This document shows, piece after piece, positions 1 to 64,000 of a DNA stretch of 64,000 nt. Made by a program: the position numbers and the translations under genes. Numbering within the stretch: the stretch's first letter is position 1; each line of letters begins with the position of its first letter. Source of the DNA: Candidatus Zixiibacteriota bacterium (GTDB lineage: Bacteria > Zixibacteria > MSB-5A5 > GN15 > PGXB01). The stretch lies in assembly GCA_016933955.1 (NCBI GenBank), contig JAFGTT010000027.1, forward strand, positions 1 to 64,000, written 5' to 3'. Below the pieces are notes generated by a model. The model was not told the DNA's origin. It did not search any database and saw nothing but the letters and a program-made list of their open reading frames with translations.

Positions 1-2604
1 CAAAACGACAAAGTCACAACTGTCAGATGCCGTCGGGGCAAAGAGCTCCTGGTCGAACAGAATGGTCGAATCCTTGGAGACGAAAATGCCCGAGTAACCA
101 TACTGGTAATCCGGATAAGTGCTGGAATCCGCCGAAGGACTAACCTGAGGACGGAAACCGTTATCAGACAACCAGGTGGCATCATACATGCCATAGTTCA
201 GGACGGTGTCGCCGCTCTTGATCAAACAGATGAAAGGACTCATGTCGTACAGGTAAACCCCGGCATGGTCATCCGAGCCGCTGTTGTTATCGGTTGTATC
301 GCAATCGTTGAAGTAGTTCAGGTTGTAACCGCCGTTGCCGTTCAAACCGCCGCCATCACCAACACCACCGGCGTTGCTGAAGGAGAGACGCACGCAGGCG
401 GTGCGGATTTCGGATTCCTCGGGGAACTGGACGGTATCGGCCACGATCAGGTTAACGCGGAGAGAATCGGTTCGGCCGCCAATCGAGTTGGAGTTGATCA
501 CGACATAACCTTCGAGAACAGCCGGCGCGGCCGTCACAACACCACCATCATTCATATACAAGTCGATGGTGGTAAAGTTGGGCGACAGGTGCGAAATCGT
601 AATCGGGCCATAGTTGCTGACATCAAGCCAGGCCGGATCGCCGGGTGTCAGGGCAATTGAAATGCTGTTAATCGTCAAAGGAGCGTTACCGACGTTTTCC
701 AGTTTAACCACAGTATCAAGCTGGACGGTGGGCTTGGTCCAGGTCGGTTCGTTAATTCTGCTGGGGGTAAAAGCCAGGACCGGGTTGGGAACCGGTTCCA
801 CGCAGGGAACCCTGAACCACTTAACCGGGTTGGTCGTCCAGATACCCGCATCCTGCTGAACCGAACCGGGGAATTTATCGTTGATGTAAAGAACATCGAG
901 ATAAAAATCACCGCTGTACGATCCGGATGGATCGACAACCGGAACACCGGTAAAGTCGCCGTCAACGACTTCCATACCGAAACGCGACATTGACGGGTAG
1001 TGATCGGATTCGCAGGGATTTTCGGTACCGGTAGCGGTATCGCATAACGGAGTATAGGTATTGGTCAGGTTGCGGGCAATATCCCAGTTATAACCGCCGT
1101 TATCGGAAACTGAAATATACAGTTCACCATTGGCGGTTCCGGAATAACCGGCACCTTGCCAGCGCAACAGGGCGCAGTCGTCATGGATACCATTGGCGAT
1201 GTCGAGGAACTGGACGAAGATGGTGTAGAACTTGCCGTCGCACTCAGAAATCTGAGGCTTAACAATACTTATTTCGTTCCAGGCGCCGCCAGTACAGGTG
1301 CTGTCATTGTAAGCCTCATCGGTAATATCCCAGTTGGCATCCTTGACGGTTCTGATTTCATCATTGAGTTCATCCCAGTGCAACAGACGAGAGCCATAGA
1401 AGGTGGTGTATTCACCGAGACCTTCATCGGCCGGGATAATTTCACGGGCCGACCAAACGATATGGAGATAATCATCGGAATCAATGAGGACACCCATATC
1501 ACCATGGCTAAGCCAGCCGCCCTTGGTTGAGTCATAAGCGCTCATATTGACCTTAGAACCCCAGCTGGCACCCATATCGGTCGAAATCATGTAATAAACA
1601 TCATTGGTCCGCTGGTTGACACCCAACCCCGGATCGAGCCAGTTACGTTCCAGAGATTCGGGATCGCCGGGGTACTGTCCTGGAGGGGCCTGCCAGACCA
1701 AAGCCACTTTGCCGCTGGCGCGAGAGGCGGTAACGGTCTGAGCAATAACCGGAACGGTATCAATGATAACCGGCGGATAATCCCAGGCGCCAACGGTATC
1801 GGAGCCGACCCGACGGAAATAATGAATCAGCGACGGCTCGGGATCCTTGTCTTCGGACTGCTGAGCAAATACGTGAGTCACGGTATCGTTGTTATAAACC
1901 TGATATTCATGAGACGGCCATAGGAATCTCCAGTCGCCGAGACTGATATCTGTGGTAGAAACGCCGTACTTCATGGTTGAATCAGGCACCGGTCGTTTAT
2001 AGGGGGAGAAGAAACATGAGCCGACATCGAAGTCATACCAAACGGTGGAATGATAGCCGGCACCTTCATTATGATGATTGGCAATAACGGCTTTACCTTC
2101 GGTGTCGATATCCAAGCTGATATAGCCGGAATAGTTGACACCCGGGCCAAGACGGGCATGAATGTCGCAACCGCCGCCGGTTCCTTCAAATATAAAGACT
2201 GCTTCATCGGCATCCCAGAGTTCGTATCCGGTTCCACGATCCAGAGTGGTGTTATCCTTTAAAGTCGATTTCATCCAGATCATGTGGACGTATTCGCTGC
2301 CGCGCCAGTCGATCTGGCGGTTCATGCGGGTATTACTCTGAAGATCATAGGTTGTAATACCAACCTGGAGACCAGGAGAAGTCGATTTGATTTCATCGAA
2401 ACCAAGATCCTGGGCACCGCCGGTATTGGGGGAATAACCGACATAGTTTTCCGCCCCGGCCAGCCTGGCCTTGGAATTCTTGGTCATCTTGATGCGCTGG
2501 TTCCAGATATTTTTATCGGCAGTCTTTGCGGCGAAAACTGTAATCGCCATAAAGGCAACTATTAGCAAAGAGAGGACAATAATTGCCGATAGTCTTTTGG
2601 TCAT
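1..2604 (-). CDS. Secreted BNR/Asp-box repeat protein, partial (C-terminus off left edge)
   Basis: Read on the minus strand from an ATG at 2604 with Shine-Dalgarno AAAGGAG just upstream; 868 codons are open to the window edge with no stop. Residues 1-27 form a signal peptide (Lys/Arg, then a long hydrophobic core, then FAAK). Residues about 250-560 resemble a sialidase-type beta-propeller: two Asp-box-like motifs are visible, STDMGASWG near residue 340 and SVSDNGGYNWD near residue 500. Residues about 605-725 look like an Ig/ASH-type domain (LENVGNAPLTINSI). The remainder is rich in Asp, Asn and Gly. Proteins of this layout in FCB bacteria usually end in a dockerin or YPNPFNP-type sorting domain; that part lies outside the window. 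No catalytic function can be assigned. All apparent plus-strand reading frames here are shadows. Confidence 0.8.
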   Translation of the reverse strand, partial: MTKRLSAIIVLSLLIVAFMAITVFAAKTADKNIWNQRIKMTKNSKARLAGAENYVGYSPNTGGAQDLGFDEIKSTSPGLQVGITTYDLQSNTRMNRQIDWRGSEYVHMIWMKSTLKDNTTLDRGTGYELWDADEAVFIFEGTGGGCDIHARLGPGVNYSGYISLDIDTEGKAVIANHHNEGAGYHSTVWYDFDVGSCFFSPYKRPVPDSTMKYGVSTTDISLGDWRFLWPSHEYQVYNNDTVTHVFAQQSEDKDPEPSLIHYFRRVGSDTVGAWDYPPVIIDTVPVIAQTVTASRASGKVALVWQAPPGQYPGDPESLERNWLDPGLGVNQRTNDVYYMISTDMGASWGSKVNMSAYDSTKGGWLSHGDMGVLIDSDDYLHIVWSAREIIPADEGLGEYTTFYGSRLLHWDELNDEIRTVKDANWDITDEAYNDSTCTGGAWNEISIVKPQISECDGKFYTIFVQFLDIANGIHDDCALLRWQGAGYSGTANGELYISVSDNGGYNWDIARNLTNTYTPLCDTATGTENPCESDHYPSMSRFGMEVVDGDFTGVPVVDPSGSYSGDFYLDVLYINDKFPGSVQQDAGIWTTNPVKWFRVPCVEPVPNPVLAFTPSRINEPTWTKPTVQLDTVVKLENVGNAPLTINSISIALTPGDPAWLDVSNYGPITISHLSPNFTTIDLYMNDGGVVTAAPAVLEGYVVINSNSIGGRTDSLRVNLIVADTVQFPEESEIRTACVRLSFSNAGGVGDGGGLNGNGGYNLNYFNDCDTTDNNSGSDDHAGVYLYDMSPFICLIKSGDTVLNYGMYDATWLSDNGFRPQVSPSADSSTYPDYQYGYSGIFVSKDSTILFDQELFAPTASDSCDFVVL

Positions 2605-3339
2605 TTTATCTCCTTTCAAAGACCTTTGGTCAAAGTTCCCAACTTATTCTCCTGAAGAAATTCCGATATCTCCGGAGAATCGGAAAATGGCAGAGGAACT
2701 GCCTGAAAACTATCCTATGTTCTCCGAACAACCACCTCCCTTCAAATGGCATAAGTTTAGATGTGGGGTTTGAATGCTATTTATAAACATCTCTTTACTG
2801 GTGATCAATCACCCAAAAACATCATTTTTATATTTTAAGCTTCGTGCTCTTGAGGTCTAATACAACCGCAAATTACACTTGCTTCCCACCCACCCTTTGC
2901 TACTGCCTTTCAGCGCATGAGGTAAATTGCAGAACGATTTAATATATATCAGTCAAAAGTAATTGTCAATAGCAAAAATCACCTAACTGACTTAAACCAT
3001 AAGGCTTTACAGCCTTCCTGAGTTTATCTAACAGCAAAAGTCTCCAATCGCAATAAAACACCATATCGCGATTTGAAATGTGAGATTATATATATTACGA
3101 AACAACAATCAACTAAAACAATTACAAATATCGAATATTTTTAAATAATTTGAATTATTATGGGGGGGCCATTTATGTCAACTTGCCTATGTGTGGATCG
3201 ACCGGCAACCATACAAATTCTGCTTGACATTCATTCGTATAAACTGTTGTTTGGCGGACAAATACGTGGATAAGAAGGTTGCCCGGTACCTCCGGACAGG
3301 ATTCAGATCAGTTGACGGATTCAGAAAGGATTATTTATT
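2605..3339. other. Intergenic region, 735 bases: divergent leader and promoter
   Basis: No protein gene with coding character was found. The left part (2605-2934) is the leader of the minus-strand secreted protein. It contains an imperfect palindrome at 2661-2685 (TTCCGAT and ATCGGAA arms around TCTCCGGAGA), a perfect 6-base-pair hairpin at 2800-2813 (GGTGAT-CA-ATCACC), and an orphan Shine-Dalgarno-like GGGAGGTGG (rc of 2732-2740) followed by a 33-codon frame starting with TTG at 2731. The right part is AT-rich, and no convincing plus-strand promoter for the acyl-CoA synthetase was recognised: the TTGACA near 3225 has no -10 box at a normal distance. Confidence 0.6.
2941..2969 (-). promoter_or_regulatory. 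Sigma-70-type promoter of the secreted BNR-like protein
   Basis: On the minus strand, TTGACA (2969-2964), a 17-base spacer and TATATT (2946-2941). The -35 is perfect and the -10 is a 5/6 match. The predicted start near 2934 gives a leader of about 330 bases. Confidence 0.75.
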
Positions 3340-18419: not shown

Positions 18420-20927
18420 TTATCTGAATGTTGTGCCTACCTGAAAATGAGGTTTCCATCCCTTGCCATCATCGCCGTGTTCATCCAGGGCATAACCGAA
18501 GTCGAATCCGATGGTGCCTATACCGGGGACAACCAGCCTGAAACCGAGCCCGACCCCTCGATAAAGGTTACTCAGGTTGATATCGGATTGATGCAGCCAG
18601 GAGTTGCCGATATCGAAAAAGGCCAGACCATACAACTGGTTTTCGATAATGGGTAGTTGCAGCTCGAAGTTCCCAACCAGCATGTACTTACCACGCACCC
18701 GAGTGGTGTAAGTAGTGGTGTCGATAACCGTTTCGACAAGGATACTATCGGATCCACTGGTGGCATCATAATAATTGGTGGTGACATATCTGGTTATGGT
18801 CGAGTCGGGCGTCAGGGAGCCATCATCATAACCGCGGATAATACCGCTGTAGCCGGTTCCGCCGGGGGAGAAGCGTTCCGATTCGAGAATAGTGGTATCG
18901 GCCCCGGGCGAGGAGACCAGCCCTGCCGTAACCTGGCTGGCCAGGACGAATTTCCAGAGCAGCGGAATGAATTTGGAAACAGTCAGAACATGTTTCTGAT
19001 ATTCCCAGAATCCGCCCAGAATCCCACCGGATTGTTCCAGCGAATAGGAAATAATCGAGCCCCTGGTGGCGAACTGGGGAAGATCACGGCTGTCCCTGAT
19101 GACTGATAATTCAACACTCGACAGGGTCAGCCAGTTTTTATTGAATCTTTCCAGAGAACCTACGAGAGGTGATCCATATTCATAATTATAGGTGGTATCG
19201 AGAGTATAATCGATAATAATCGTACCGGAAGTATCATAAACGGGAACATATTCCTCGTAAGCGTCAATCGTCAATTCCGAATGCGATGCGGTATAACTAT
19301 CGCTGAAATCATAGAAACGGTCCCCTTCGATACGGTAACGGGCATAGGCGCGGAAATAATTGTCCGGCCATCGCAACCGGCGGCCGATTCGAATGGCACC
19401 GCCGCGCCGCCCTTCGGTATAGTCGGAATACCATTCGCGGTTGGTGGAATACAAATCCACACCAACTGAGGTCGGGGTGGAGAAAGCCCATGGTTCGGTG
19501 AAAGAAAGGGAATAGGAATTGGTGGTACTTCCGATATCCATATTAAGCGACAGATTCTGTCCCATACCACGGAAATTGGGAATACCCAGACCAAACGTGC
19601 CGACGAATTTATCGACTCCGGAGTAACCGGCCCCGGCCGAAACCTGGGCGGTGGGTTTTTCCTCGACAGTGACGACGACATCGACATCACCCGACGGCAG
19701 ATTGGTGATATCCGGAGTAACATTGCCGAAATAATTCAGCTGCATAATATCGCGAACCGATCGGATTAACAGCGAGCGATGGAAAACTTGTCCCGGTCGA
19801 ATCGACATTTCCCGGCGGATGACTTTTTCTTTGGTCCGGGTGTTACCGAGAATACGAACCAGGTTGATTTCAGAAGGTAAACCCTCGACGATATCAAAAG
19901 TTATATTAATCAGGCTGTCGCTGGTTTTTCTATCATCGATAACGCGGACATGGAGATGCCCTTTTTCCTGGTAGAGGAAATAAATTTCGTAAATCGACTC
20001 ATCGAATTTCTCGTTGTCGAAAACCGCGTTTTCCTTGTATTTTAGAACACTCGCCAGAATTTCATCGGGCAGGACCTCATTGCCGGTGAACTGAGTCGTC
20101 CCGAAATAGTACCGCGGTCCTTCATAAATATCAAGATAAATGGTCATGCGATTGCGGGCGCTGTCAATGGCAATGGAATCCGACTTCAGGTAAGCGTCGA
20201 TAAAACCTTTATTATGCAGGTAAGTGATTATTTTTTCCATATCCTCAGGGTACTTTTCTTTATCGAAATTGGAGGATTTAAGCAGTCCGCGTTTTCGATT
20301 GCGCATTTTCCCGATGATATCCTTGGCAGGGACTCGCTCGTTGCCGGTCAGAACGACTTTCTCCACTTTGACCTTGGAACCCTCGCTGATATTATAAGTC
20401 AGATCGGCTATCGAGGAATCCTGACTGTACTGAAGACCGAAATCGACCTGAACCAGATAGTACCCTTTTTCACCATAAATATCAGTTATTTTATTTCTTT
20501 TTTCATAGATAAGATTCTGGGACAGGTAACTGCCGCCGGTCAGGTTTAGTTTTTCCTTGATATCATTGGTTTTGATTTCTTTGTTGCCGGTGAACTTAAG
20601 AACCCCGAGTTTGGGTAATTCGGTCACCTTGATTGTCAGGTTCAAGCCGCCGGTAACTTCTTCGGCCAGAATTTCGATATCACGAAAAAAGCCCAGTCCA
20701 TAGAGGCGGCTGACGGCTTCCTGGGTAACGGAGGCGGTCAGTTCATCCCCTTTTTTTATTCCGGCGACCGACAGGATAAGACTTGTTGAGGCGACTTTAT
20801 TGCCGACCACATTGACATTAACAACATTAAAAGTCTGTGCCCGGAGTTGGGGTAAGAAAATAACCATCGCCACCACAGCCAGCACAAAAGGCCGGATCAT
20901 CCGTGATGCCGGCCATTTCCGTGTCAT
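18420..20927 (-). CDS. bamA: Outer-membrane protein assembly factor BamA (Omp85)
   Basis: 835 residues from the ATG at 20927. A TTG at 20948 in the same frame overlaps the rplU stop as TTGA and is the alternative start. Signal peptide (about residues 1-31, ending LRAQ), five POTRA-type repeats in the periplasm (about 32-420, e.g. VNVNVVGNKVASTSLIL, GNERVPAKDII, FTGNEVLPDEIL, ILGNTRTKEKVI), and a 16-strand beta-barrel to the end. The barrel shows VRGKYMLVGNFELQLPI, a VRG motif as in lid loop 6, although IIRGYDDGS also occurs, and ends in an aromatic-Arg strand (HFQVGTTFR). It inserts beta-barrel proteins into the outer membrane. Confidence 0.96.
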   Translation of the reverse strand: MTRKWPASRMIRPFVLAVVAMVIFLPQLRAQTFNVVNVNVVGNKVASTSLILSVAGIKKGDELTASVTQEAVSRLYGLGFFRDIEILAEEVTGGLNLTIKVTELPKLGVLKFTGNKEIKTNDIKEKLNLTGGSYLSQNLIYEKRNKITDIYGEKGYYLVQVDFGLQYSQDSSIADLTYNISEGSKVKVEKVVLTGNERVPAKDIIGKMRNRKRGLLKSSNFDKEKYPEDMEKIITYLHNKGFIDAYLKSDSIAIDSARNRMTIYLDIYEGPRYYFGTTQFTGNEVLPDEILASVLKYKENAVFDNEKFDESIYEIYFLYQEKGHLHVRVIDDRKTSDSLINITFDIVEGLPSEINLVRILGNTRTKEKVIRREMSIRPGQVFHRSLLIRSVRDIMQLNYFGNVTPDITNLPSGDVDVVVTVEEKPTAQVSAGAGYSGVDKFVGTFGLGIPNFRGMGQNLSLNMDIGSTTNSYSLSFTEPWAFSTPTSVGVDLYSTNREWYSDYTEGRRGGAIRIGRRLRWPDNYFRAYARYRIEGDRFYDFSDSYTASHSELTIDAYEEYVPVYDTSGTIIIDYTLDTTYNYEYGSPLVGSLERFNKNWLTLSSVELSVIRDSRDLPQFATRGSIISYSLEQSGGILGGFWEYQKHVLTVSKFIPLLWKFVLASQVTAGLVSSPGADTTILESERFSPGGTGYSGIIRGYDDGSLTPDSTITRYVTTNYYDATSGSDSILVETVIDTTTYTTRVRGKYMLVGNFELQLPIIENQLYGLAFFDIGNSWLHQSDINLSNLYRGVGLGFRLVVPGIGTIGFDFGYALDEHGDDGKGWKPHFQVGTTFR

Positions 20928-20944
20928 GTGTACTTCGCCGTGGT

Positions 20945-21265
20945 TCAATTTTCGGGTGGAGTGATTTTCTTAATCTTGATTTCCGTGTATTTCTGGCGAT
21001 GCCCCTGGGCCTTACGATATTTGGTTCTTTTCTTGAATTTATAAACATCGATTTTTCTGGCCAGACCTTCATTTAAAACTTCGGCCTCAATGCTGGCCGA
21101 TTCCAGATAGGGGGATCCGACAAACGACTTCTCGCCATCATTGACCAACATGACTTTCTCGATCGAGATCATTTCGCCGGGTGTCGCAGTCATATGGGGA
21201 ATTTTTATCTGCGTGCCCACTTCAGCGCTGAATTGCAATCCTCCGGTTTCAAAAACAGCATACAT
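20945..21265 (-). CDS. rplU: 50S ribosomal protein L21
   Basis: 106 residues. The ATG at 21265 is chosen because GGAGG lies eight bases upstream and L21 proteins start MYAV; a TTG five codons earlier is unlikely. Hallmarks are MYAVFETGG and the rRNA-binding end KFKKRTKYRKAQGHRQKYTEIKI. L21 is usually followed by rpmA (L27), which is absent here; instead bamA follows. A TTGACA lies about 75 bases upstream of the start with no convincing -10 box. Confidence 0.96.
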   Translation of the reverse strand: MYAVFETGGLQFSAEVGTQIKIPHMTATPGEMISIEKVMLVNDGEKSFVGSPYLESASIEAEVLNEGLARKIDVYKFKKRTKYRKAQGHRQKYTEIKIKKITPPEN

Positions 21266-26066: not shown

Positions 26067-29000
26067 ATGATTAGGTTGCAACTCTTTGTAAAAGTTGCGG
26101 TTTCCATAATCATTTTAAGCATTGCTTTAGCGTATGGGTCTTTTGCGGAAACCGGCAGCCACCGCCTGCCATATTATGATATTGCCGCTGAGGCATACCC
26201 TGGCAGCGGCTACAAGGCGGATTCGAAGAACTCCGATATTACTGATGATGGCACGATGACTTTAATCGGGGTTATGGGTGATGGTGAAGGGGCAACCGAT
26301 AATGCGACGCCTCCATCATCGAATCCCTATTTTTATAATTTTCTCGACTTTGAGAGTTTCTATTTTTGTGATTTTGGTACTATCTCTGACACTTTCGTGG
26401 TCAAGGATACCAATTTCAGCCGGGTTATAACCATAACTCAGCTGTCCGGACCGGGATCGATATCAACGCAATCCGGACCTTCCCCGGTTGAGGTTATCTA
26501 TGAATATACGCCGGCCGGTTCCGGCGATTTCGACATCGCCCTGATGGCCAAAGACAGCGAGGGCGATTCGGTTATAGTCACCAAATCATATACTGTCGAT
26601 ATCAACGGTTCGCCGCAGATCACCTCCAGCGATACCACCGTATTATTATGTTCGACTCAGGGTTATGTAACCATCCTGGTCGAAGCTTCGGATCCCGATG
26701 GCGATCCGCTTACATTCAGACGGGTATCATGTGAGGGAACACTCGACAGCCTGACCGGTTCATTGAAATTCTGGTCCAAGGAACCGGGGATATATTGCCA
26801 TACGATTATGGTCAGCGACGGATATTGCACCGATACGGCCGAAATATGTGTCACTGTGGGTGTCAACACTTCGCCGTCGTTCGACAATCCCGATCAAAAG
26901 TTTTATATTTGCCAGCCGGATTCGATTTGTTTTGAAATATTTGCGGCTGATCCCGATGCCGGCGATATAATCGAAATAATCCAGTGGAGTGGTCCCGGGG
27001 TTTTCAGCATGACCGGCGCTTTATCCGGGATAACCTGTTTTCTTCCGGACGATGTTGATTCGGCCGATTATACATTCATTTACGAAGCGACCGATAAATG
27101 CCTTCGCGGCGAATATACCAAGGATGATGCCTGTCCTCCCAATCCGAGAGATACGGTCATTATCACTGTGGTCAAAGGGGAAACATTCAGCCTGAATTGT
27201 CCCGGTGACACTTCGGTCTTCATCTGCGGTCCGGATACCATTTGTTTCGATCCGGGTGAAATTCCTCCTGATGCCGAAATAAGTGTATCTCCGCCATCGG
27301 CCTGGTATGATGCCGAGGCCGGAAAGATTTGTTTCTTCACCAATTGCACTGTGAAAAAAGATCTCAAGGTTGTGGTTGATACGGAATGCGGCCGGGACAG
27401 CTGTATGTTCCAGGTTGATGTGACGATGAACTCGGCCCCGCTGGTCATTCTGGCGCCGGATACGACTGTCAAATTATGCGATCTTGATGAAATTTGTCTT
27501 CCGGTCGGTATCAGCGATATCGACGATAACTTGTCCGAGATCATCATTACCCCGCAAGGAAGTTATAATGAGACGACCGGGAAAATCTGTTTTACGCCTG
27601 AAACGGCCGGTTTTAACACGATTTATGTTCAGGCCATTGATGACTGCGGTGTATCGGATATAGATTCTATCGAGGTCTTTGTTGAGTTGAATTCCGCGCC
27701 GGTGGTGGAATTAACTCCCGAGGCTTCATTCTTCCTCTGTGATCTTGAAGAAATATGTCTGCCGGTTTCGATCTCCGATCCCGATGACAACCTGTCATCG
27801 GTTACCGTCAGTTCGCCAGGGTATTATAATTCCGAAAGTGGCATGATCTGTTTTACTCCCGATGATACGGGCGGTGTTTATAAAATCGAAATTACGGCCA
27901 TCGATTCGTGCGGTCACAAAAATACCGCTCTTTCAATGGTCACCGTAAATTATAATCGGCCGCCTCTTATATCGATGTCCGACAGCACTGTCTTTCTCTG
28001 CGCCTCGGCTCAGACATGCATTCCGGTTGCAGTCAATGATCCGGATGATAATCTTGAGACGGTCAATCTGATTGGTACCGGGACATATTCCGGGGGATTT
28101 ATCTGTTTTACACCCGAACAGGCGGGAGAATATGATTTTGTCCTGGAGGCGGTTGATGAGTGCGGTGCTGTCTTCCGTGATTCGATAACGGTTACGGTGG
28201 AAATTAATTCTCCTCCCGTGGTTACTGGACCGGAAAATCTCGATGTCTTTCAGTGCGTTTTTGAAGAAATTTGTTTCGATATAGATGCCAATGATTTTGA
28301 TGGCAATCTTCAGACTATATCGGCCAATCCGGGATATTACGATTCTGAAAATGGCCGGGTATGTTTTACGCCGCCCGGCGCTGGTGATTATCAGATTATC
28401 ATAACCGCTTCCGATTCATGTTACGCCTCCGATGAGGATACGGTAGTTATCAGCGTAGCCACCGGGGAAAGCGCCAATATCATTTGCCCTGAGAATCCGA
28501 TTGACATGAGTGTCTGCAGCCAGACAACAATCTGCTATCCTCTGGAAATATCGCCTGCTAATACAAATGTTACGGCTTCATATGGTGAATATACTGATGG
28601 TCAATTATGCTTTCTGGCCGACACGACGGGAACTTATGTGATCGATGTCATTGCTGATGCTCTTTGCGGTTCAGACACCTGCCAGCTGACATTTAATATT
28701 GAAATTGGCCAGACTCCGGTTATAATCTGCCCGGATGATACGACGATCGAATTATGCGGCCCCGATCAGGTTTGTCTTCCGCTGGAAATCACGCTCGATG
28801 AAGTTAGCATCAATATCTGGCCAATAGGTTCTTACTCCGATGGCGAAATTTGCTTTCGGGCTGATTCCTCAGGTCACTATGTAATCAATGTTTCTGCCGA
28901 GGCCGAATGCGGTGTTGACACCTGTTCATTCGCTGTCGATATCACTTTTAACGCCTCTCCTGAAATAACATCCGGGAACGGTGACTATTTTGAATGCCTG

Positions 29001-32000
29001 CCCGGTCAGATAATAAGCTATTATATCCTGGCGGTTGATCCCGAGGATGACCCGATAACATTCTCTCTGATCAGCAGTGATGGGACAATTGATCCGGAAA
29101 CGGGTATTCTTACGTTTGATGCCGATACTGCCGGAACTTACTGCTTCGATATTACCGCGGCCGATATGTGCGGTAGCGATACTGCGACCGTTTGTATCAA
29201 TATCCAGCTTAACACCCCGCCGGTGGTCACCTCCGGACCGGATACGAGTCTGACTACCTGTACCTGGGAAGATGAAATATGTATCCCGGTGGCGGTTACC
29301 GACGGAGATAATAATATCGTCTCGATAACCAGCAACATCGGCACATATTCCAACGGTTTCGTTTGTTTCACGCCTGAATCGGCCGGTGTCTATTATATTA
29401 TTACCACCGCCTACGACGCCTGCGAGGCATATGATAAAGACACGACCATTGTGACGATAGAGACAGGTCAGCCGATTACGCTGGAATGTCCCGGAAATAT
29501 CTCCGAATTTATCTGCGCCGCCGATACTCTCTGTTATGAGATTGGCGGAATACCTGAGGATGCCGACGTGACTGTTTATCCGGCATCAGCCTGGTATGAT
29601 CATGGCAGCCGCACGATCTGTTTTTATACCAACTGTTCGGTCACAAAAAATCTTAAAATAGTCGCCGAGAACGAGTGCGGCAAAGATAGTTGCCAGTTTA
29701 CCGTGAATGTAACTTTGAATTCAAGACCGCTGGTAATTATGAATCCGGATATGAATGTTTCGCTGTGCGGCCCCGAACAAGTTTGTATCCCGGTCGGTAT
29801 CAGCGATGTCGATAATAATATCGTCCGAATCGTTGTAACCCCGGGAACGATCTATAATGCCATAACCGGGCGTATCTGTTTTACACCCACGACCCCGGGC
29901 CGATATGCCATTGTTGCCATGGCGATTGATCGATGCGGCAAAACCGACTATGATTCGACCGTTGTTTATGTTGAAATGAACAGCGCACCGGACGTAGTAT
30001 CTGCCCCGGATTTCGATGAATTCCTTTGCGGCCTGACTGAAATCTGCTTCCCGGTCGATATCAGTGATGCCGATGATAATATTGAGTCGGTAACGGTCTC
30101 GCTAGATGGAAATTATGATTCCGCCACCGGTCGGGTTTGTTTCATGCCGACTCAAGCCGGAAATTATAATATTATTACTACCGCAGTCGACGAGTGCGGG
30201 CTCACCAAGGCCGATACCACCCAGGTTAACGTATATCTCAACAGCAATCCCGAAGTGGTGCTGGGCGATGACACCACCGTTGTAATATGTGAGTGGGATC
30301 CGATCTGCATACCGGTTACCATTACCGATATCGATAATAATCTTAAATCGATAACAGCTTACGGCGGGCAGCTGACTAATGGTTATGTCTGTCTTGAAGA
30401 TTATGAAGCCGGTTCACATACGATTATTGTCGAAGCCATCGATTCATGTAATGCCATAGACGCCGATACGGTTGTTATAAATGTTATCGAGAACAGAAGT
30501 CCATCAGTCACTTCGGCAGCTGATTTCGATGTTTTCCAGTGTGTTTTTAATGAAATCTGTTTTGGTGTCGTGGTAGTTGATCCCGATGTCAACATCGAAT
30601 CTATTTCCACCAATATCGGTTATTATGACAGTGAAACCGGCCGGGTTTGTTTCACTCCGACCACGGCTGGAGTCTATACTATTATTACCACCGCTACCGA
30701 TGAATGTTATCTCTCGGCCAGCGACACGACCATAGTAACCGTGTCCACCGGTGAAGCGGCTGTAATTGATTGCCCGGCCGAACCGATTTATAATTTCCTG
30801 TGCGGCCCGGAAACCGTTTGCTATGAACTCGGGATCAGTCCGCTTAATGCAACCGTAACACCTTCATACGGTACTTTTGCCGATGGGCAGTTGTGTTTTG
30901 AAGCTGACACTTCCGGAGTTTACTTGATTGAAATTACGGCCGAGGCTGAATGCGGCAGTGATGTCTGTCAGTTAACATTCGATGTTGAAATCGGACAACC
31001 TGCCCAGATTACCTGCCCCGAGGACACCTCCGTATTCCTTTGTGGACCTGAAGCAGTCTGTTTGCCGATAGATATCATTCCCCAGGATGCCGAGGTCTCA
31101 ATCAGTCCCGTGGGCAGTTTTGAAAACGGGGAGATCTGTTTCATGGCTGATACCGAGGGCATATACGACCTGACTATTGCGGCGGAATCCGAATGCGGGG
31201 CTGACACATGTCACTTGAGTATTGCGGTCGTATTCAATCACGCTCCCGTGGTCTCAGCAGGGCCGGATACCGGTGTTTTCCAGTGCAATTATGAGGAGGT
31301 CTGCATCCCTGTCGAAATCATTGATCGGGATAATGCTCTTGATTCCATAGTTGTTTCGCCTATGGGTTATTACGATTCAGAAGCCGAAAAAGTCTGTTTT
31401 ACGCCGGAGAATGTTGGTAGTCACTGCCTGATTATTTCGGCTTATGATGAATGCCAAGCGGTCGGTCGGGATACGGTTTGTGTAACGGTAACGACCGGAG
31501 CGGTGGCTGTAATCGATTGTCCGGCCGAACCTATCACCAAACATCTCTGTGATCCGGGACAACTTTGTATCCCGATTTCAATTAGCCCATCGACGGCCGA
31601 AGTGATCGCCACCTATGGCATCTATGTTGATGGCGAATTATGCATGTATGTCGATACTTCCGGTCATTACGAGTCAATGATAATTGCCACCGAAGACTGC
31701 GGTGCCGACACCTGTATTATTGAAGTCAATGTCATTATCGATCAGTATGCCGGTATTATATGTCCCGATCTGCCGGTGGCGGTATCTCTATGTTCCCCCG
31801 GTACGGTGAATCTTCTTCTGCCGATTACACCGAGTTCGGCCTCGGTAAGTATTCTTCCTTACGGTACATACAATTTTACAACCAAAACCTTTTCCTTCAT
31901 GGCCGATACTACCGGTCATTATATGTTTACCATAATTGCGGCGACTCCATGCAACATCGATACCTGCCATGTGGAAGCCGACATCGTTATAAACGAAATT

Positions 32001-34031
32001 CCGGAGTTAACCTGTCCGGGTGATATCGATACCCTGGTCTGCCTGGCGGAAGTCGATGAAGTATGTTTCAATGTCGGTGTGGTTGGCGCCGAAGCGGAGG
32101 TCACGGTTCTTCCTGAAGGGGAATACTCCGGCGGGATGGTTTGTGTACCGGTGTCGGAGGCCGGTCTTCACGAGATAACCATTATTGCCTCATCCAATTG
32201 CGGCGCGGACACCTGCGAACTTAATCTTACGATTATTCAGGATGATCCGCCGGTTTTGACAGTTCCGGAAGATGTTATGATTCCGTGGTGTGATGATGAT
32301 GAAGGCCAGATTTGCATTGACGGTATCTTTGCCGAAGATTCGGGCGAGGGAGAATTAACCATAACCCAAACCTGCGGTCCCGGCGAATATTTCGCCGTCT
32401 GCGATGACAGCGGTTATGTCTGTTTCACTCCCGACAACATGGATACGACCTACGAATTCTGTTTCCGGGCCAGTGATGGCTGCTCGATTGACGAAAAGAC
32501 ATTCCAGGTAACGGTATTCCCGTCGGCCGCCTGTTCGGTATGTGTCGAGGTCGCTATTGAAACTGATTCCTGCTTTGTGGTCGGATCCAGGGTTCCTGTG
32601 TATGTTACGATTGATACCCGTGAGGAAATCGGTGGTTTTGATCTTCTGATTGGCTATGATGCCTCGGCTCTGATCTTCATGTATGCATCTCAGGGCTCGG
32701 CCATCAGTGAATGGGAGTACTTCATTTATAATATTCCCAGCGAAGACTGCGGATCAGGATGTCCATCGGGTCTAGTGCACCTGGTCGGTATTGCCGATCA
32801 AAACGATGGACCGTACCACCCGCCTTCGGAACAGCTGAGTCCCGACGGGATTCTATCGCAATTATTAATGCGTGTGGTCAATGATCAAAATCTTGGCGGC
32901 CAGTATTTGCCGATCGGTTTTGTCTGGGCCGATTGCGGTGACAATTCCTTCTCCAACACCATCGGTGATATTCTGTATGTCGATTCCAGAATATACGGCC
33001 CCTTCGGAAGTGTTATCTGGGATGAATCTGATGACATCCACTTCCCTGAAAGCGCCCGTCTCGCTAATACCGGCGCTCCCGATAGCTGTATGGTTGGAGA
33101 TAAGACAAAACCGGTCCGTTGCGTTTATTTACACAACGGCGGGATATGCGTTAAACATCCCGAGGAAATCGATGACCGGGGCGATGTCAATTTGAACGGC
33201 GTGGCCTATGAGATCGCAGACGCGGTGGTTTTCACCAATTATTTCATCCACGGTCTGGCGGCATTCGTTGTCAATGTGGATGGTCAGATTGCGGCGACCG
33301 ATATAAACGCCGATGGTTATGCCCTATCAGTGGCTGACCTGGTTTATTTGATCCGGGTCATTATCGGTGATGCCACCATGATCCCCAAAGTCTCGCCGCA
33401 TAATCTGAATATCGATCTGGCGGTTGGCGACAACCATGGCTCACTCAGTGTCGAAGCCCGGAGCGCCTGTGCCGCCGGAGCCGGATTCCTGGTCTTCCAG
33501 TACGAAGGCCTGGTTCCGGAACCGCCGCAACTCGGCGATCTGGCTGATGGTATGGAACTGGCTTACAGCATTTCCGATTCGGAAATCCGAATCCTGATAT
33601 ACAGTTTCGAGCCGAGCCGCACAATTAAGAGCGGAACCGGTGAACTTCTGAAATTATCCTACAGCGGGCAGGGGAATATTACCCTGGTGGAAACCTCATT
33701 TGCCAGTTTCCATGGCGAAGCCATGACCTCCAGCAACACCCTCAAACTGTTGCCGGAAGATTTCATGGTTTCACAGAATTATCCCAATCCGTTCAATCCG
33801 ATTACGACTATTGATCTGTCGTTGCCGGTCGCCTGTCACTGGGATATGACGATTTATAATGTTAATGGTCAACTGGTCAGACAATTCGGCGGTGATTCCG
33901 ATCCTGGTGTGATTTCGATTACCTGGGACGGCACCGGGTCCGATGGACGGACGGTCGCCTCCGGAATTTACCTGTACAAGGTCACGGCCGGGCAGTTCAA
34001 GACTACCAGGAAAATGACCATGATAAAATAA
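26067..34031 (+). CDS. Giant secreted Ig-repeat stalk protein with cohesin-like, dockerin-like and C-terminal sorting-type domains
   Basis: 2654 residues; GGAGGAAGG precedes the ATG. A signal peptide (1-27) leads to an entry region and then about 23 Ig/cadherin-like repeats of about 86 residues (roughly 181-2155). A repeat reads approximately C-x3-x2-CIPV-x-I-x-D-x-DNN, G-x-Y, ICFTP-x-x-AG-x-Y, A-x-D-x-CG. Each has three or four cysteines, suggesting internal disulfides. Then come a cohesin-like domain (about 2160-2310, VGSRVPVYVTID and IGGFDLLIGYD), a dockerin-like pair of calcium loops (about 2368-2437: GDVNLNG and TDINADG), a further beta domain, and a C-terminal FlgD/T9SS-type Ig domain (about 2565-2654, NYPNPFNPITTI, SGIYLYKVTAG). 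It should be exported and form a long surface stalk. Binding partners are unknown. It stands alone between terminators. Confidence 0.9.
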   Translation: MIRLQLFVKVAVSIIILSIALAYGSFAETGSHRLPYYDIAAEAYPGSGYKADSKNSDITDDGTMTLIGVMGDGEGATDNATPPSSNPYFYNFLDFESFYFCDFGTISDTFVVKDTNFSRVITITQLSGPGSISTQSGPSPVEVIYEYTPAGSGDFDIALMAKDSEGDSVIVTKSYTVDINGSPQITSSDTTVLLCSTQGYVTILVEASDPDGDPLTFRRVSCEGTLDSLTGSLKFWSKEPGIYCHTIMVSDGYCTDTAEICVTVGVNTSPSFDNPDQKFYICQPDSICFEIFAADPDAGDIIEIIQWSGPGVFSMTGALSGITCFLPDDVDSADYTFIYEATDKCLRGEYTKDDACPPNPRDTVIITVVKGETFSLNCPGDTSVFICGPDTICFDPGEIPPDAEISVSPPSAWYDAEAGKICFFTNCTVKKDLKVVVDTECGRDSCMFQVDVTMNSAPLVILAPDTTVKLCDLDEICLPVGISDIDDNLSEIIITPQGSYNETTGKICFTPETAGFNTIYVQAIDDCGVSDIDSIEVFVELNSAPVVELTPEASFFLCDLEEICLPVSISDPDDNLSSVTVSSPGYYNSESGMICFTPDDTGGVYKIEITAIDSCGHKNTALSMVTVNYNRPPLISMSDSTVFLCASAQTCIPVAVNDPDDNLETVNLIGTGTYSGGFICFTPEQAGEYDFVLEAVDECGAVFRDSITVTVEINSPPVVTGPENLDVFQCVFEEICFDIDANDFDGNLQTISANPGYYDSENGRVCFTPPGAGDYQIIITASDSCYASDEDTVVISVATGESANIICPENPIDMSVCSQTTICYPLEISPANTNVTASYGEYTDGQLCFLADTTGTYVIDVIADALCGSDTCQLTFNIEIGQTPVIICPDDTTIELCGPDQVCLPLEITLDEVSINIWPIGSYSDGEICFRADSSGHYVINVSAEAECGVDTCSFAVDITFNASPEITSGNGDYFECLPGQIISYYILAVDPEDDPITFSLISSDGTIDPETGILTFDADTAGTYCFDITAADMCGSDTATVCINIQLNTPPVVTSGPDTSLTTCTWEDEICIPVAVTDGDNNIVSITSNIGTYSNGFVCFTPESAGVYYIITTAYDACEAYDKDTTIVTIETGQPITLECPGNISEFICAADTLCYEIGGIPEDADVTVYPASAWYDHGSRTICFYTNCSVTKNLKIVAENECGKDSCQFTVNVTLNSRPLVIMNPDMNVSLCGPEQVCIPVGISDVDNNIVRIVVTPGTIYNAITGRICFTPTTPGRYAIVAMAIDRCGKTDYDSTVVYVEMNSAPDVVSAPDFDEFLCGLTEICFPVDISDADDNIESVTVSLDGNYDSATGRVCFMPTQAGNYNIITTAVDECGLTKADTTQVNVYLNSNPEVVLGDDTTVVICEWDPICIPVTITDIDNNLKSITAYGGQLTNGYVCLEDYEAGSHTIIVEAIDSCNAIDADTVVINVIENRSPSVTSAADFDVFQCVFNEICFGVVVVDPDVNIESISTNIGYYDSETGRVCFTPTTAGVYTIITTATDECYLSASDTTIVTVSTGEAAVIDCPAEPIYNFLCGPETVCYELGISPLNATVTPSYGTFADGQLCFEADTSGVYLIEITAEAECGSDVCQLTFDVEIGQPAQITCPEDTSVFLCGPEAVCLPIDIIPQDAEVSISPVGSFENGEICFMADTEGIYDLTIAAESECGADTCHLSIAVVFNHAPVVSAGPDTGVFQCNYEEVCIPVEIIDRDNALDSIVVSPMGYYDSEAEKVCFTPENVGSHCLIISAYDECQAVGRDTVCVTVTTGAVAVIDCPAEPITKHLCDPGQLCIPISISPSTAEVIATYGIYVDGELCMYVDTSGHYESMIIATEDCGADTCIIEVNVIIDQYAGIICPDLPVAVSLCSPGTVNLLLPITPSSASVSILPYGTYNFTTKTFSFMADTTGHYMFTIIAATPCNIDTCHVEADIVINEIPELTCPGDIDTLVCLAEVDEVCFNVGVVGAEAEVTVLPEGEYSGGMVCVPVSEAGLHEITIIASSNCGADTCELNLTIIQDDPPVLTVPEDVMIPWCDDDEGQICIDGIFAEDSGEGELTITQTCGPGEYFAVCDDSGYVCFTPDNMDTTYEFCFRASDGCSIDEKTFQVTVFPSAACSVCVEVAIETDSCFVVGSRVPVYVTIDTREEIGGFDLLIGYDASALIFMYASQGSAISEWEYFIYNIPSEDCGSGCPSGLVHLVGIADQNDGPYHPPSEQLSPDGILSQLLMRVVNDQNLGGQYLPIGFVWADCGDNSFSNTIGDILYVDSRIYGPFGSVIWDESDDIHFPESARLANTGAPDSCMVGDKTKPVRCVYLHNGGICVKHPEEIDDRGDVNLNGVAYEIADAVVFTNYFIHGLAAFVVNVDGQIAATDINADGYALSVADLVYLIRVIIGDATMIPKVSPHNLNIDLAVGDNHGSLSVEARSACAAGAGFLVFQYEGLVPEPPQLGDLADGMELAYSISDSEIRILIYSFEPSRTIKSGTGELLKLSYSGQGNITLVETSFASFHGEAMTSSNTLKLLPEDFMVSQNYPNPFNPITTIDLSLPVACHWDMTIYNVNGQLVRQFGGDSDPGVISITWDGTGSDGRTVASGIYLYKVTAGQFKTTRKMTMIK

Positions 34032-60087: not shown

Positions 60088-60768
60088 ATGATGACGGGGT
60101 CGGATTTTTGCAGGTATATTGACAACCTCTCGATCGGTGATGATGATCGGCGGGTTCGATATCTCTCGCTGTTTTCTGCAATCATTGCGGTTGGCGATGA
60201 ACATTTGACGGAGTCGGCCATTGGCTGTCTGTATGAACGCGGTATGGATCGCGAAGCTCTTTATGAAGCCATTTTGCAGAGTTATCTTTTTCTCGGATTT
60301 CCCAGAATGATCGAGGCGGCTCTGGCTTTCAACCGGGTCATAGGTAATATGACCGGGCATTGTTCTCTGGAAGCGGTGACCCCGGAGGAATCCGGGGAAT
60401 GGTTTGAGCGGGGGATTAATCTCTGCCGACGGGTTTATGGGAAAAATTACGAAGTTTTAAGAAAACGGTTTCTTGAGGTATCGCCCGAGATTTTCCGCTG
60501 GATGGTCATCGAAGGATATGGTAAAGTCCTCTGCCGACCCGGAATGACTCATATTGAACGCGAACTGGCCGAAGTGGCGGCCCTGATTGTCGATCGACGG
60601 GAACGTCAACTTGTTTCCCATATTCTTGGCAGTCTCAATGTCGGCGCTGAAATGCCATTGATAAGAATCATCAACCGGGATATCAGACCTCTGGCTGGAG
60701 AAACCGCCCATGAACTGGCGAATCGGGTTATCCGGCGAATCCAGGAGAAGTATGAAACTCAGATATAG
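60088..60768 (+). CDS. Carboxymuconolactone decarboxylase-like protein, two CMD-like halves
   Basis: 226 residues from the ATG at 60088; a second ATG follows at once. The first half (about residues 20-95) reads like a CMD/AhpD-type helical domain: LTESAIGCLYERGMDREALYEAILQ then SYLFLGFPRMIEAALAF. The second (about 140-215) repeats the pattern: HIERELAEVAALIVDRRERQLVSHILGSLNVGAE. The CxxC pair used by AhpD peroxidases is absent, so a redox role is unlikely and the activity is unknown. Leaderless-type start. Ends 17 bases inside the tamB-like gene, hence coupled to it. Confidence 0.72.
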   Translation: MMTGSDFCRYIDNLSIGDDDRRVRYLSLFSAIIAVGDEHLTESAIGCLYERGMDREALYEAILQSYLFLGFPRMIEAALAFNRVIGNMTGHCSLEAVTPEESGEWFERGINLCRRVYGKNYEVLRKRFLEVSPEIFRWMVIEGYGKVLCRPGMTHIERELAEVAALIVDRRERQLVSHILGSLNVGAEMPLIRIINRDIRPLAGETAHELANRVIRRIQEKYETQI

Positions 60769-63700
60769 ACTGCTTCTGGCCCCGATAGTCTCGGCCTTCA
60801 TTTTTTTCCTGACGACTTACCTGGCCATTTTTCATTTCGGTTTGGTGGAATATATGGCCAATCGCGAGTTGAGAAAGCAGATCGGCGCCAATCTGCCTAT
60901 CCGCGTCCATATCGGTGAAATAACCGGAGATTATTACTCCCGGCTGAAATTGGAAGATGTTTTTGTAATTTATGATGACGGTACCACTATTTATACCATG
61001 GCGGCCGTCCCGATCATTGAGATTAGATATTCTCTTTCCCGATTCTGGAGAGGACTTTTGTATTTCGAATCGATTGAAATTGATTCGGCCATCCTGACTA
61101 TCAAGCAATCAACGGAGCGAAAATGGCTGGTTCCGAAACCGCTGTCGGAATCAAAAAGAAAGGAGGCCATCCTTGATTTCGAAATCGATCGATTTAATTT
61201 GCGTAATTTAAGTCTGCGCCTGTTTCAGCCGGATGACACTCTGATTTTCAGCGATGTTGCTTTTGGCGCCCGGTTTCGGGGTCGCGAAAAAACCTATACG
61301 GCTCAGATAGACAGTCTCAGGTTCAAATCCACCGATGATCGGCTTGGATATCTGTCGGCCAGCGGCCGGATCACGCTTACCGGAAACCATTTGATGTACC
61401 AGGACCTGTCCGTCAGTACCGATTCCACCGATATCACCCTGAACGGGCTTTTAATTCTGGAAGACACCATACAGAACAATTGCGAATTCGAGGCCCGACA
61501 TTTGAATATCGCGGAAATTGCCTCGTTTGTCAATGTTCATCTGAACGGTCATATCGCCGCCGGAGGCGCTTTTTCATATGGCGCCGGTAAACTTGAAGGC
61601 AGGATCGAATTAAGCGGTGATTTTATGGATCGCAAATTCGATTCGTTATCCATGTCATTTGAGTACCATGACCGCCTGCTCATGCTTGATACCCTGATCG
61701 GCCATATTTTTGAAGGTTGCTACCTGGAAGGACACGGGCAACTGGATCTCCGGCAGAAGCCGGAGCAGTACAAATATATCGGTATGATCAAAAATTTTAA
61801 TCTCGACAACCTGGCGAATAATACCTTTTATTCCGATTTAAGCGGCATAATAAATTTGACCGGTTCCGGCCTGAAAAAGGAAAATCTCCTGATCGATGCT
61901 ATTGTCAATCTGGATGAATCCTGGTTCGATCGATATCATATGCACCATTCGATAGGGGAGATGACCATTACGACCGACAGCCTCCGATTTTATGATTCAT
62001 TCGTCTTCAAATATTACGATAATACGATTACCTTCGGCGGCCGGATGGATTATCACGGATTACTCGAAATCGCCGGTCATGCCGCCTTCAAAAACCTGTC
62101 GGTATTCAACGGGCAGATTTTCATCGCCAGGATGGGCGGACGGGGGGAAGCCGATTTTCGTCTTGGCGGCCTTCTCAGGAACCCTGATTTACAGGGTATT
62201 TTCCAATCCGATTCCCTCTGGCTATATGATTTTTATTCATCGCATTCTCAATTCGATGTCAATGTCAGAAGATTTCTGTACGATCGGGAAGGTTATGTCA
62301 ATATGACCCTTCTGGATGGTTCGGCCTATAATATTCCGTACGATACTATCGCTCTGCTGATGACCCTCGATTCTCAGTACGTTTTTATCGACAGTTCCCA
62401 TGCTTACAACAGGTACGCCGATATCCGGGTCGGGGGAAAGTTGGATTATTATAATTACCCTCAATGTTTGGCCCTTGATGATGTCCGGGTCGATATCCTC
62501 GGGCTGGATTCCCATAATGCCGATACCATGGTGATCGAGATCGACAGTCTGGGATACGATATCAGGCAGGGACGGCTGGATCGTGAGGAAGGATATATCG
62601 ATGGGCGGGGGAGAATCAATTATGATCAGTCGATGAATTTTCAGATTAAGGCCGCCGGTGTCGAGATCGGTCCCTGGGTGGCCCTGTTTAATGATCAGTA
62701 CAATATCACCGGCAGGATTTACGGTCAGGCCCGGCTAGGCGGGAATTTCGATAAACCTCTGATAAAATACCGGGGCGGGATTGATTCCCTGGGTTACCAG
62801 GGTTTAAATCTGGGAAATCTTTTTGCCGATTTCGATTATGGAGAACAACGGGTTGCATTCGATTCGGTCACTCTTAAAAGCCGGGAAGGATATTATCATG
62901 CCGTCGGATATTATCCTCTGGACCTGGCATTTGCCCGTATTGATGACCGTTTCCCCGACTATGATCAGAATATCGATATATTGATTTATGATAATCGTTT
63001 CGATCTGGTCAGCCTGCTTCTAAACGAGGTCGAGGACTTGACCGGCGAGTTTAAGGCCCAGTTCAAGTTGACAGGAACCCCTCTGAAACCTAAAATCGAT
63101 GGCGAGGCTTCGATCCGCAAGGGTCGGTTAAAGCTGTATGACCTGGTTCAACCGCTTGAGAATCTCCGGGCCGATATGAAAATGATTAATCATACGGTTT
63201 ATCTGGATTCGCTCTCGGCCATGTGCGAAAACGGTTCCGGAAGCATGGGTCATGTTGGCGGTAACGGCATAATCCAGATTAATTCCATCGACAGGTTCGA
63301 CTATGACGTGATGATTACGGCCAAAGAATTCCCGATAAAATATGAACTGGGAGACATTACCGGATCGGTCAATGCCGATCTGGCGGTGAGGGGAGAGACC
63401 CCGCCGACGGTTGAGGGCGATGTCGAAATCATCGCACTTACTTATCGCGAGAATTTCGCCGCTGAGAATGAGGGTTGGAGTGTCCTTTCGGCCCTCCAGA
63501 GTGAAAACAGCTGGGATCTTAATCTTAATGTCGAAGCCATTTCAAATTTATGGATCAAGAATGATGATATTGATGCCGAATTCTCGGGCAATCTCAATTT
63601 CATCAGGGAGCAGGGGAAATATCGTTATATCGGGCAGATGGAAATTCTTCGGGGTAAAGGCTACTGGGCCGATCGAACTTTCCGAATCGAACCCGGGGCG

Positions 63701-64000
63701 ACCATCAATTACGAAGATATCGAATATCCCAATCCCACCCTGGATATTTATGCATCGACCAGGATCAGGGCAACGGCACCATCGGCGGCCGGCGATGAGA
63801 AACTGGAGACCACCAATATTGATCTAATGGTTCATGTTACCGGCACCCTTGAAGAGCCGATAATCGCCACAGCCGAGGGTTCGCAATACTCTACGGAAGA
63901 ACTCCTTTCTATTATTTTTCTAAATGATTATCAGACCGGAACCAATACGGAACAGAGAATCGGCGATCGGCTGACAGCGGGACTGGCGGAATATGTCGGA
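60752..64000 (+). CDS. tamB: TamB-like (DUF490) translocation and assembly protein, partial (C-terminus off right edge)
   Basis: 1083 codons open to the right edge; ATG at 60752 with AGGAGAAG upstream, overlapping the CMD gene. One N-terminal membrane anchor (residues about 7-24, LLAPIVSAFIFFLTTYLAIF) followed by a long periplasmic chain of amphipathic beta-strands, as in AsmA/TamB-type bridge proteins thought to move phospholipids or help barrel assembly. The last part (from about residue 870: GEFKAQFKLTGTPLKPKIDGEASIR, VEGDVEI, GTLEEPIIATAEGSQYSTEELLSIIFLND) matches the start of the DUF490/TamB C-terminal domain. The rest is outside the window. Confidence 0.88.
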   Translation, partial: MKLRYRLLLAPIVSAFIFFLTTYLAIFHFGLVEYMANRELRKQIGANLPIRVHIGEITGDYYSRLKLEDVFVIYDDGTTIYTMAAVPIIEIRYSLSRFWRGLLYFESIEIDSAILTIKQSTERKWLVPKPLSESKRKEAILDFEIDRFNLRNLSLRLFQPDDTLIFSDVAFGARFRGREKTYTAQIDSLRFKSTDDRLGYLSASGRITLTGNHLMYQDLSVSTDSTDITLNGLLILEDTIQNNCEFEARHLNIAEIASFVNVHLNGHIAAGGAFSYGAGKLEGRIELSGDFMDRKFDSLSMSFEYHDRLLMLDTLIGHIFEGCYLEGHGQLDLRQKPEQYKYIGMIKNFNLDNLANNTFYSDLSGIINLTGSGLKKENLLIDAIVNLDESWFDRYHMHHSIGEMTITTDSLRFYDSFVFKYYDNTITFGGRMDYHGLLEIAGHAAFKNLSVFNGQIFIARMGGRGEADFRLGGLLRNPDLQGIFQSDSLWLYDFYSSHSQFDVNVRRFLYDREGYVNMTLLDGSAYNIPYDTIALLMTLDSQYVFIDSSHAYNRYADIRVGGKLDYYNYPQCLALDDVRVDILGLDSHNADTMVIEIDSLGYDIRQGRLDREEGYIDGRGRINYDQSMNFQIKAAGVEIGPWVALFNDQYNITGRIYGQARLGGNFDKPLIKYRGGIDSLGYQGLNLGNLFADFDYGEQRVAFDSVTLKSREGYYHAVGYYPLDLAFARIDDRFPDYDQNIDILIYDNRFDLVSLLLNEVEDLTGEFKAQFKLTGTPLKPKIDGEASIRKGRLKLYDLVQPLENLRADMKMINHTVYLDSLSAMCENGSGSMGHVGGNGIIQINSIDRFDYDVMITAKEFPIKYELGDITGSVNADLAVRGETPPTVEGDVEIIALTYRENFAAENEGWSVLSALQSENSWDLNLNVEAISNLWIKNDDIDAEFSGNLNFIREQGKYRYIGQMEILRGKGYWADRTFRIEPGATINYEDIEYPNPTLDIYASTRIRATAPSAAGDEKLETTNIDLMVHVTGTLEEPIIATAEGSQYSTEELLSIIFLNDYQTGTNTEQRIGDRLTAGLAEYVG

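Follow-up and report, generated by a model that had tools for sequence, protein, structure and literature searches.

The stretch of DNA analysed here (the window) is the opening 64 kb of contig C27, which belongs to a 3.38-Mb genome assembly, and one of the genes in this stretch encodes a 2654-residue protein that ends in a cohesin, an atypical dockerin, a second cohesin-like domain and a T9SS tail, in that order. This cohesin-dockerin-cohesin block is one evolutionary unit, kept through almost the whole phylum Zixibacteria. The features of the gene are as follows.

26067..34031, plus strand: whole gene, 2654 aa, a single open reading frame
26169..32513, plus strand: Ig-like stalk with some two dozen repeats as counted by eye, recognised by Pfam Big_9 and a GxICFTP-type motif
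32532..33158, plus strand: cohesin domain, residues 2156-2364, its last strand preceded by an insertion, from AF2 models and structure match
33177..33374, plus strand: atypical dockerin, residues 2371-2436, with two 13-residue calcium loops, from ligand conservation and alignment to 4dh2_B
33183..33221, plus strand: calcium loop 1, DVNLNGVAYEIAD, from ligand conservation
33300..33338, plus strand: calcium loop 2, DINADGYALSVAD, from ligand conservation
33405..33740, plus strand: second cohesin-like beta-sandwich, residues 2447-2558, from AF2 strands and a profile match to 2xdh
33774..34028, plus strand: T9SS type A C-terminal sorting/anchoring domain, residues 2570-2654, from TIGR04183

Read from its N-terminus, the protein comprises a signal-like segment (recognised by eye only), a Cys-rich Ig-like stalk, the block and the T9SS tail. 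The stalk scores above the Pfam Big_9 cut-off and slightly below that of a K319L-like PKD family, and the GxICFTP-type motif recurs along its length. The initial annotation had placed the cohesin and dockerin on the end of this stalk; the module does come after the stalk, but the second cohesin-like domain and the T9SS tail still follow. The tail scores 43.8 bits against TIGR04183 (cut-off 23) and is thus a T9SS type A sorting domain. The genome also encodes the T9SS translocon protein SprA (SprA_N, E 3.5e-28, in a 1981-aa frame), and T9SS tails occur in 50 of its frames; four of its five block proteins end in such a tail and the fifth in an ordinary dockerin. A cellulosomal scaffoldin has several cohesins and a CBM and gathers dockerin-bearing glycoside hydrolases, and a Pfam search of the 2654-residue protein revealed no CBM. 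Elsewhere in the window lie a BamA-like Omp85 protein with five POTRA domains (18420-20948, minus strand) and, at the right edge, a TamB-like protein (60710-64000, plus strand).

We found that residues 2156-2364 are predicted to adopt the nine-strand cohesin beta-sandwich fold, with the AF2 model matching 5nrk_A at a VIA Z of 15.5-15.9 and an rmsd of 2.0 Å over 140 residues, and the Archaeoglobus fulgidus cohesin 2xdh at a Z of 13.7; among the best 50 PDB entries for this model, nearly all are cohesins. Structure prediction, which had been proposed as the check on a cohesin at about residues 2160-2310, therefore upheld the fold (Z 15.9) but not the boundary, since the insertion carries the domain about 50 residues further, to about residue 2364. 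Profile searches, proposed alongside, were less generous to the window copy taken alone, for which the cohesin is sub-threshold (PF00963, E 0.012, 15-16 bits versus a cut-off of 24.1) and the dockerin is absent from the Pfam and NCBIfam results (PF00404, E 0.43, 11.3 bits versus a cut-off of 22.9), because of sequence divergence and an extra residue in the dockerin loops. Paralogues in the same genome exceed the PF00963 cut-off (36.1 bits for the one on C22), 21 of 35 aligned copies match PF00963 with an E of 1 or less, the best being 6e-8, and the cohesin domain, searched as a profile against the PDB, leads to the clostridial cohesins 3l8q (E 1e-4) and 3ul4 (E 5e-4). Residue D2192, kept in 177 of 207 aligned copies, is aligned with D39 of the Clostridium thermocellum cohesin.

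Two dockerin calcium loops had been read at about residues 2368-2437, and we could place there a dockerin-like domain (residues 2371-2436) whose calcium ligands are near invariant. Among 207 aligned copies, the loop 1 ligands are kept in 206 (D2373), 205 (N2375), 199 (N2377) and 206 (D2385) and the loop 2 ligands in 186 (D2412), 202 (N2414), 205 (D2416) and 207 (D2424). The AF2 model shows helices at 2383-2399, 2404-2410 and 2422-2433, with a helix after each loop. Alignment with the dockerin 4dh2_B opens a one-residue gap, both loops being 13 residues long compared to the canonical 12, and this additional residue in each loop accounts for the weak PF00404 score. Because the domain has the two calcium loop-helix repeats and the ligands expected of PF00404, but neither the 12-residue loops nor a score above the profile cut-off, we label it dockerin-like rather than Dockerin_1. 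It is the most conserved part of the block, with a mean entropy of 1.23 bits versus 2.13 and 2.69 elsewhere, and its classical recognition positions hold I-A/V-A where clostridial dockerins have S-T.

The sole significant PDB profile match of residues 2447-2558 is again the A. fulgidus cohesin 2xdh, at an overall E of 9e-4 that is made up of two collinear stretches, the better of which reaches only 0.18 by itself. A Pfam search with this domain gave no match, and hhalign found no relation between its profile and that of cohesin 1, so we limit its name to cohesin-like; an origin by recent duplication of cohesin 1 is left unsupported by the same hhalign result. The domain is poorly conserved among the aligned copies.

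Across the order, orthologues are 44-63% identical along the entire block, and those relatives of the block that carry names come nearly all from Zixibacteria genomes. Among 233 distinct copies, a set pooled from whole-block and dockerin-only search matches so that its fractions are not free of selection, cohesin 1 lies upstream of the dockerin in 218 and the second domain downstream in 227, with a median gap between dockerin and cohesin 2 of 12 residues (9-20). Searching with the dockerin alone, which does not force the neighbours, still recovers the same block. The profile search found the atypical dockerin in 121 of 132 Zixibacteria genomes and in 70 of the 78 good ones, at 1-22 copies per positive genome, and recurrence of the same domain profile in 121 genomes of the phylum means that the dockerin-like match is not due to chance. 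Cohesin 1 and the dockerin are not strictly tied, since 15 copies are without the first cohesin. Such copies occur at L169 (2630-3563, minus strand), L170, L177, L179 and L196; the variants include a short dockerin-cohesin-2 protein that bears a lipobox-like LPAGC, and proteins in which dockerin-cohesin-2 is doubled and an ordinary dockerin forms the end. Some proteins carry several blocks in tandem, with up to four dockerins (L168). One 1040-aa protein of the present genome (L189, 7788-10907 on C7), situated in a cluster of dockerin-bearing genes, has two blocks and an ordinary dockerin replacing the T9SS tail.

An AF2 run on 409 residues with 119 sequences and the tail left out produced a mean pLDDT of 92.5 and a pTM of 0.81; a first run on 505 residues, with 35 sequences and the tail included, had reached a pTM of 0.49 with poor domain placement. 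By our own estimate, cohesin 1 alone, about half of the chain, could support a pTM of only about 0.55, so that at least one further domain must be placed relative to it, and a pTM of 0.81 is too high for independently floating domains. The junction between cohesin 1 and the dockerin has a pLDDT of 84-94 compared to 68 for that between the dockerin and cohesin 2, which marks the former as the firmer joint, and only about 10 residues separate the last cohesin strand (2358-2362) from the first calcium ligand (D2373). These junction values point to cohesin 1 as the domain that holds the dockerin, and the model makes a self-packed unit likelier than a link in a chain-forming assembly, with cis packing read from the pTM only and from a one-chain prediction, in which a swapped dimer and cis packing look identical. 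The initial annotation had envisaged self-association into chains and, with it, an undescribed extracellular assembly system; the test it set, whether the loops pack inside their own chain, tends to the opposite answer, the three-domain block reaching a pTM of 0.81, which leaves such an assembly possible yet not the best reading.

Pairing in trans, in which the dockerin would bind a cohesin on a second copy or on a paralogue and so cross-link the stalks into chains or a coat, would fit the presence of both partners on one chain in most copies, the up to 22 atypical dockerins in a positive genome, the retention of D2192, the residue aligned with D39, and the tandem blocks of proteins such as L168. 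We nevertheless consider it unlikely, as the high-confidence one-chain model and the very short linker favour cis and our analyses furnished no positive evidence for trans. Covariation was assessed by ridge inverse covariance on 207 sequences (Neff 185) and recovered mostly within-domain pairs. For the classical cohesin face, pairs of interface and recognition positions were not significant (p=0.26), and interface against all dockerin positions gave p=0.04 by one of three measures; in dockerins without cohesin 1, recognition residues were not specifically relaxed in comparison to equally divergent controls (p=0.5). The recognition positions that differ from clostridial ones and the poor conservation of the second cohesin-like domain could also mean that the folds are vestigial and now serve as plain beta-sandwiches, structural or carbohydrate-binding, whose cohesins and dockerin make no contact, but we hold this to be highly improbable given the near-invariant calcium ligands, the strong conservation of the dockerin and the rigid arrangement in the AF2 model.

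The reading that we prefer, and to which we give an even chance, draws on the conservation of the block, the deep-alignment model, the short linker and the T9SS tail and SprA; in it, the region is the end nearest the membrane of a stalk protein exported by T9SS and anchored at the surface, with the cis-packed, calcium-stabilised block as a pedestal. T9SS would export the protein and the tail would then anchor it to the outer membrane; the calcium-loaded dockerin would pack in cis against the domains on either side of it, the first cohesin above all, and the packed block would serve as a rigid, calcium-stabilised pedestal holding the Ig stalk off the cell. A cohesin face left free could hold the ordinary dockerin of another secreted protein. 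More tentatively, the block may be a phylum-wide "self-clasped" unit, in which the 13-residue-loop dockerin is locked in cis to its own cohesin and acts beneath T9SS-anchored surface proteins as a calcium-dependent switch or rigid pedestal, opening to trans contacts when calcium or force changes.

A count of dockerin-bearing proteins, called for by the initial annotation, showed that there are many in the genome, with 76 PF00404 matches to ordinary dockerins in 73 frames. Among the contigs of this genome (G000), only one frame (C28, 979 aa) carries both an ordinary dockerin and a T9SS tail, and we suggest that the two are alternative ways of surface attachment. Proteins with a T9SS tail and one or two plain cohesins are also encoded (L191 on C30, 298 aa; L190 on C4, 447 aa; L188 on C22, 901 aa) and are candidate anchoring receptors for the ordinary dockerins. 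By analogy, the genome looks like it holds a T9SS-anchored display system similar to that proposed for Cloacimonadota (PMC8542988). A further secreted protein opens the window.

1..2619, minus strand: first 873 aa of a secreted protein that is truncated at the contig start and whose homologues end in an ordinary dockerin

The C-terminus of this protein is missing because the contig starts there. It had been named as a candidate partner should the lost end carry a dockerin, and this guess gains support from its homologues, as an ordinary dockerin closes all 11 of those whose C-terminus is complete (identified by pattern and by eye). Judged from these sequences, the protein probably ends in a dockerin, its role as a partner being only possible. 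A copy with 79% identity also runs off the start of contig C30, and another with 76% identity lies on C17; the copies probably form a repeat family at which the assembly breaks.

We compared blocks with ordinary dockerins across 15 genomes. Both cohesins of the block might receive the ordinary dockerins that some 70 secreted proteins carry, with the atypical dockerin only shaping or regulating the site. Such a display role would be consistent with the dockerin-terminated homologues of the neighbouring protein, and the overlap of the 73 dockerin frames and 50 T9SS-tail frames in a single frame is as it predicts, although few shared frames are expected anyway when both are C-terminal modules. 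However, three genomes of genus g32 (G041, G044 and G055) have 22-42 ordinary dockerins with neither atypical dockerin nor block, which shows that ordinary dockerins do not require the block, while G017 has nine blocks and only 12 ordinary dockerins, and the simpler T9SS-tailed cohesin proteins on C30, C4 and C22 are at hand. The comparison lends no support to the block as an obligatory receptor for ordinary dockerins, and the g32 genomes show that it is not their general one; we regard the display reading as a whole as doubtful. The tested f6 and f17 genomes are nearly without both blocks and ordinary dockerins.

Clostridial scaffoldins differ from the protein described here in their long linkers, canonical 12-residue loops, role in cellulose degradation and lack of T9SS, and their dockerin recognises cohesins of another type. 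In A. fulgidus, a cohesin and a dockerin occur together in one protein; this system shares with ours a non-cellulosomal cohesin (2xdh) but is archaeal, without a T9SS tail, and has ordinary dockerin loops. Binding within the A. fulgidus cohesin-dockerin pair has been demonstrated (PMC9705933). The initial annotation took the presence of both domains on one chain to be unusual, which it is not: scaffoldins that combine cohesins with a dockerin in a single polypeptide are standard, for example in Acetivibrio cellulolyticus, and clostridial scaffoldins resemble the present protein in this respect (PMC3413522), while in proteins of ANME archaea a single dockerin is accompanied by as many as five cohesins (PMC9012536). 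Those ANME proteins are likewise found outside cellulosomes and their function is open, but being archaeal they are without a T9SS tail, and a fixed cohesin-dockerin-cohesin block is not described there (PMC9012536). Candidatus Stygibacter of the Cloacimonadota is, like the present organism, FCB-type, and has a cohesin scaffoldin with a T9SS-type C-terminal domain together with dockerin-tagged enzymes; its scaffoldin, in contrast, joins tandem cohesins with CBMs, and no cohesin-dockerin-cohesin block is described (PMC8542988). Altered calcium loops are also seen in the ScaA and CttA dockerins of Ruminococcus flavefaciens, where one loop has an insert of 12-13 residues, compared to the single extra residue in both loops here (PMC5934362). 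As far as the searched literature shows, the fixed tripartite block, the 13-residue length of both loops, the T9SS tail directly behind and the spread through the phylum are new; that search found no paper joining Zixibacteria with dockerin or with T9SS.

Cohesins and dockerins are widespread outside cellulosomes, and the block offers a clean, abundant and phylum-wide case. Because its domains adjoin at fixed spacing and are predicted to form a rigid body, cis versus trans pairing can be tested with one recombinant construct. For the uncultured Zixibacteria, these results suggest a cell surface decorated with cohesins that T9SS anchors there and with dozens of secreted proteins that carry a dockerin tag.
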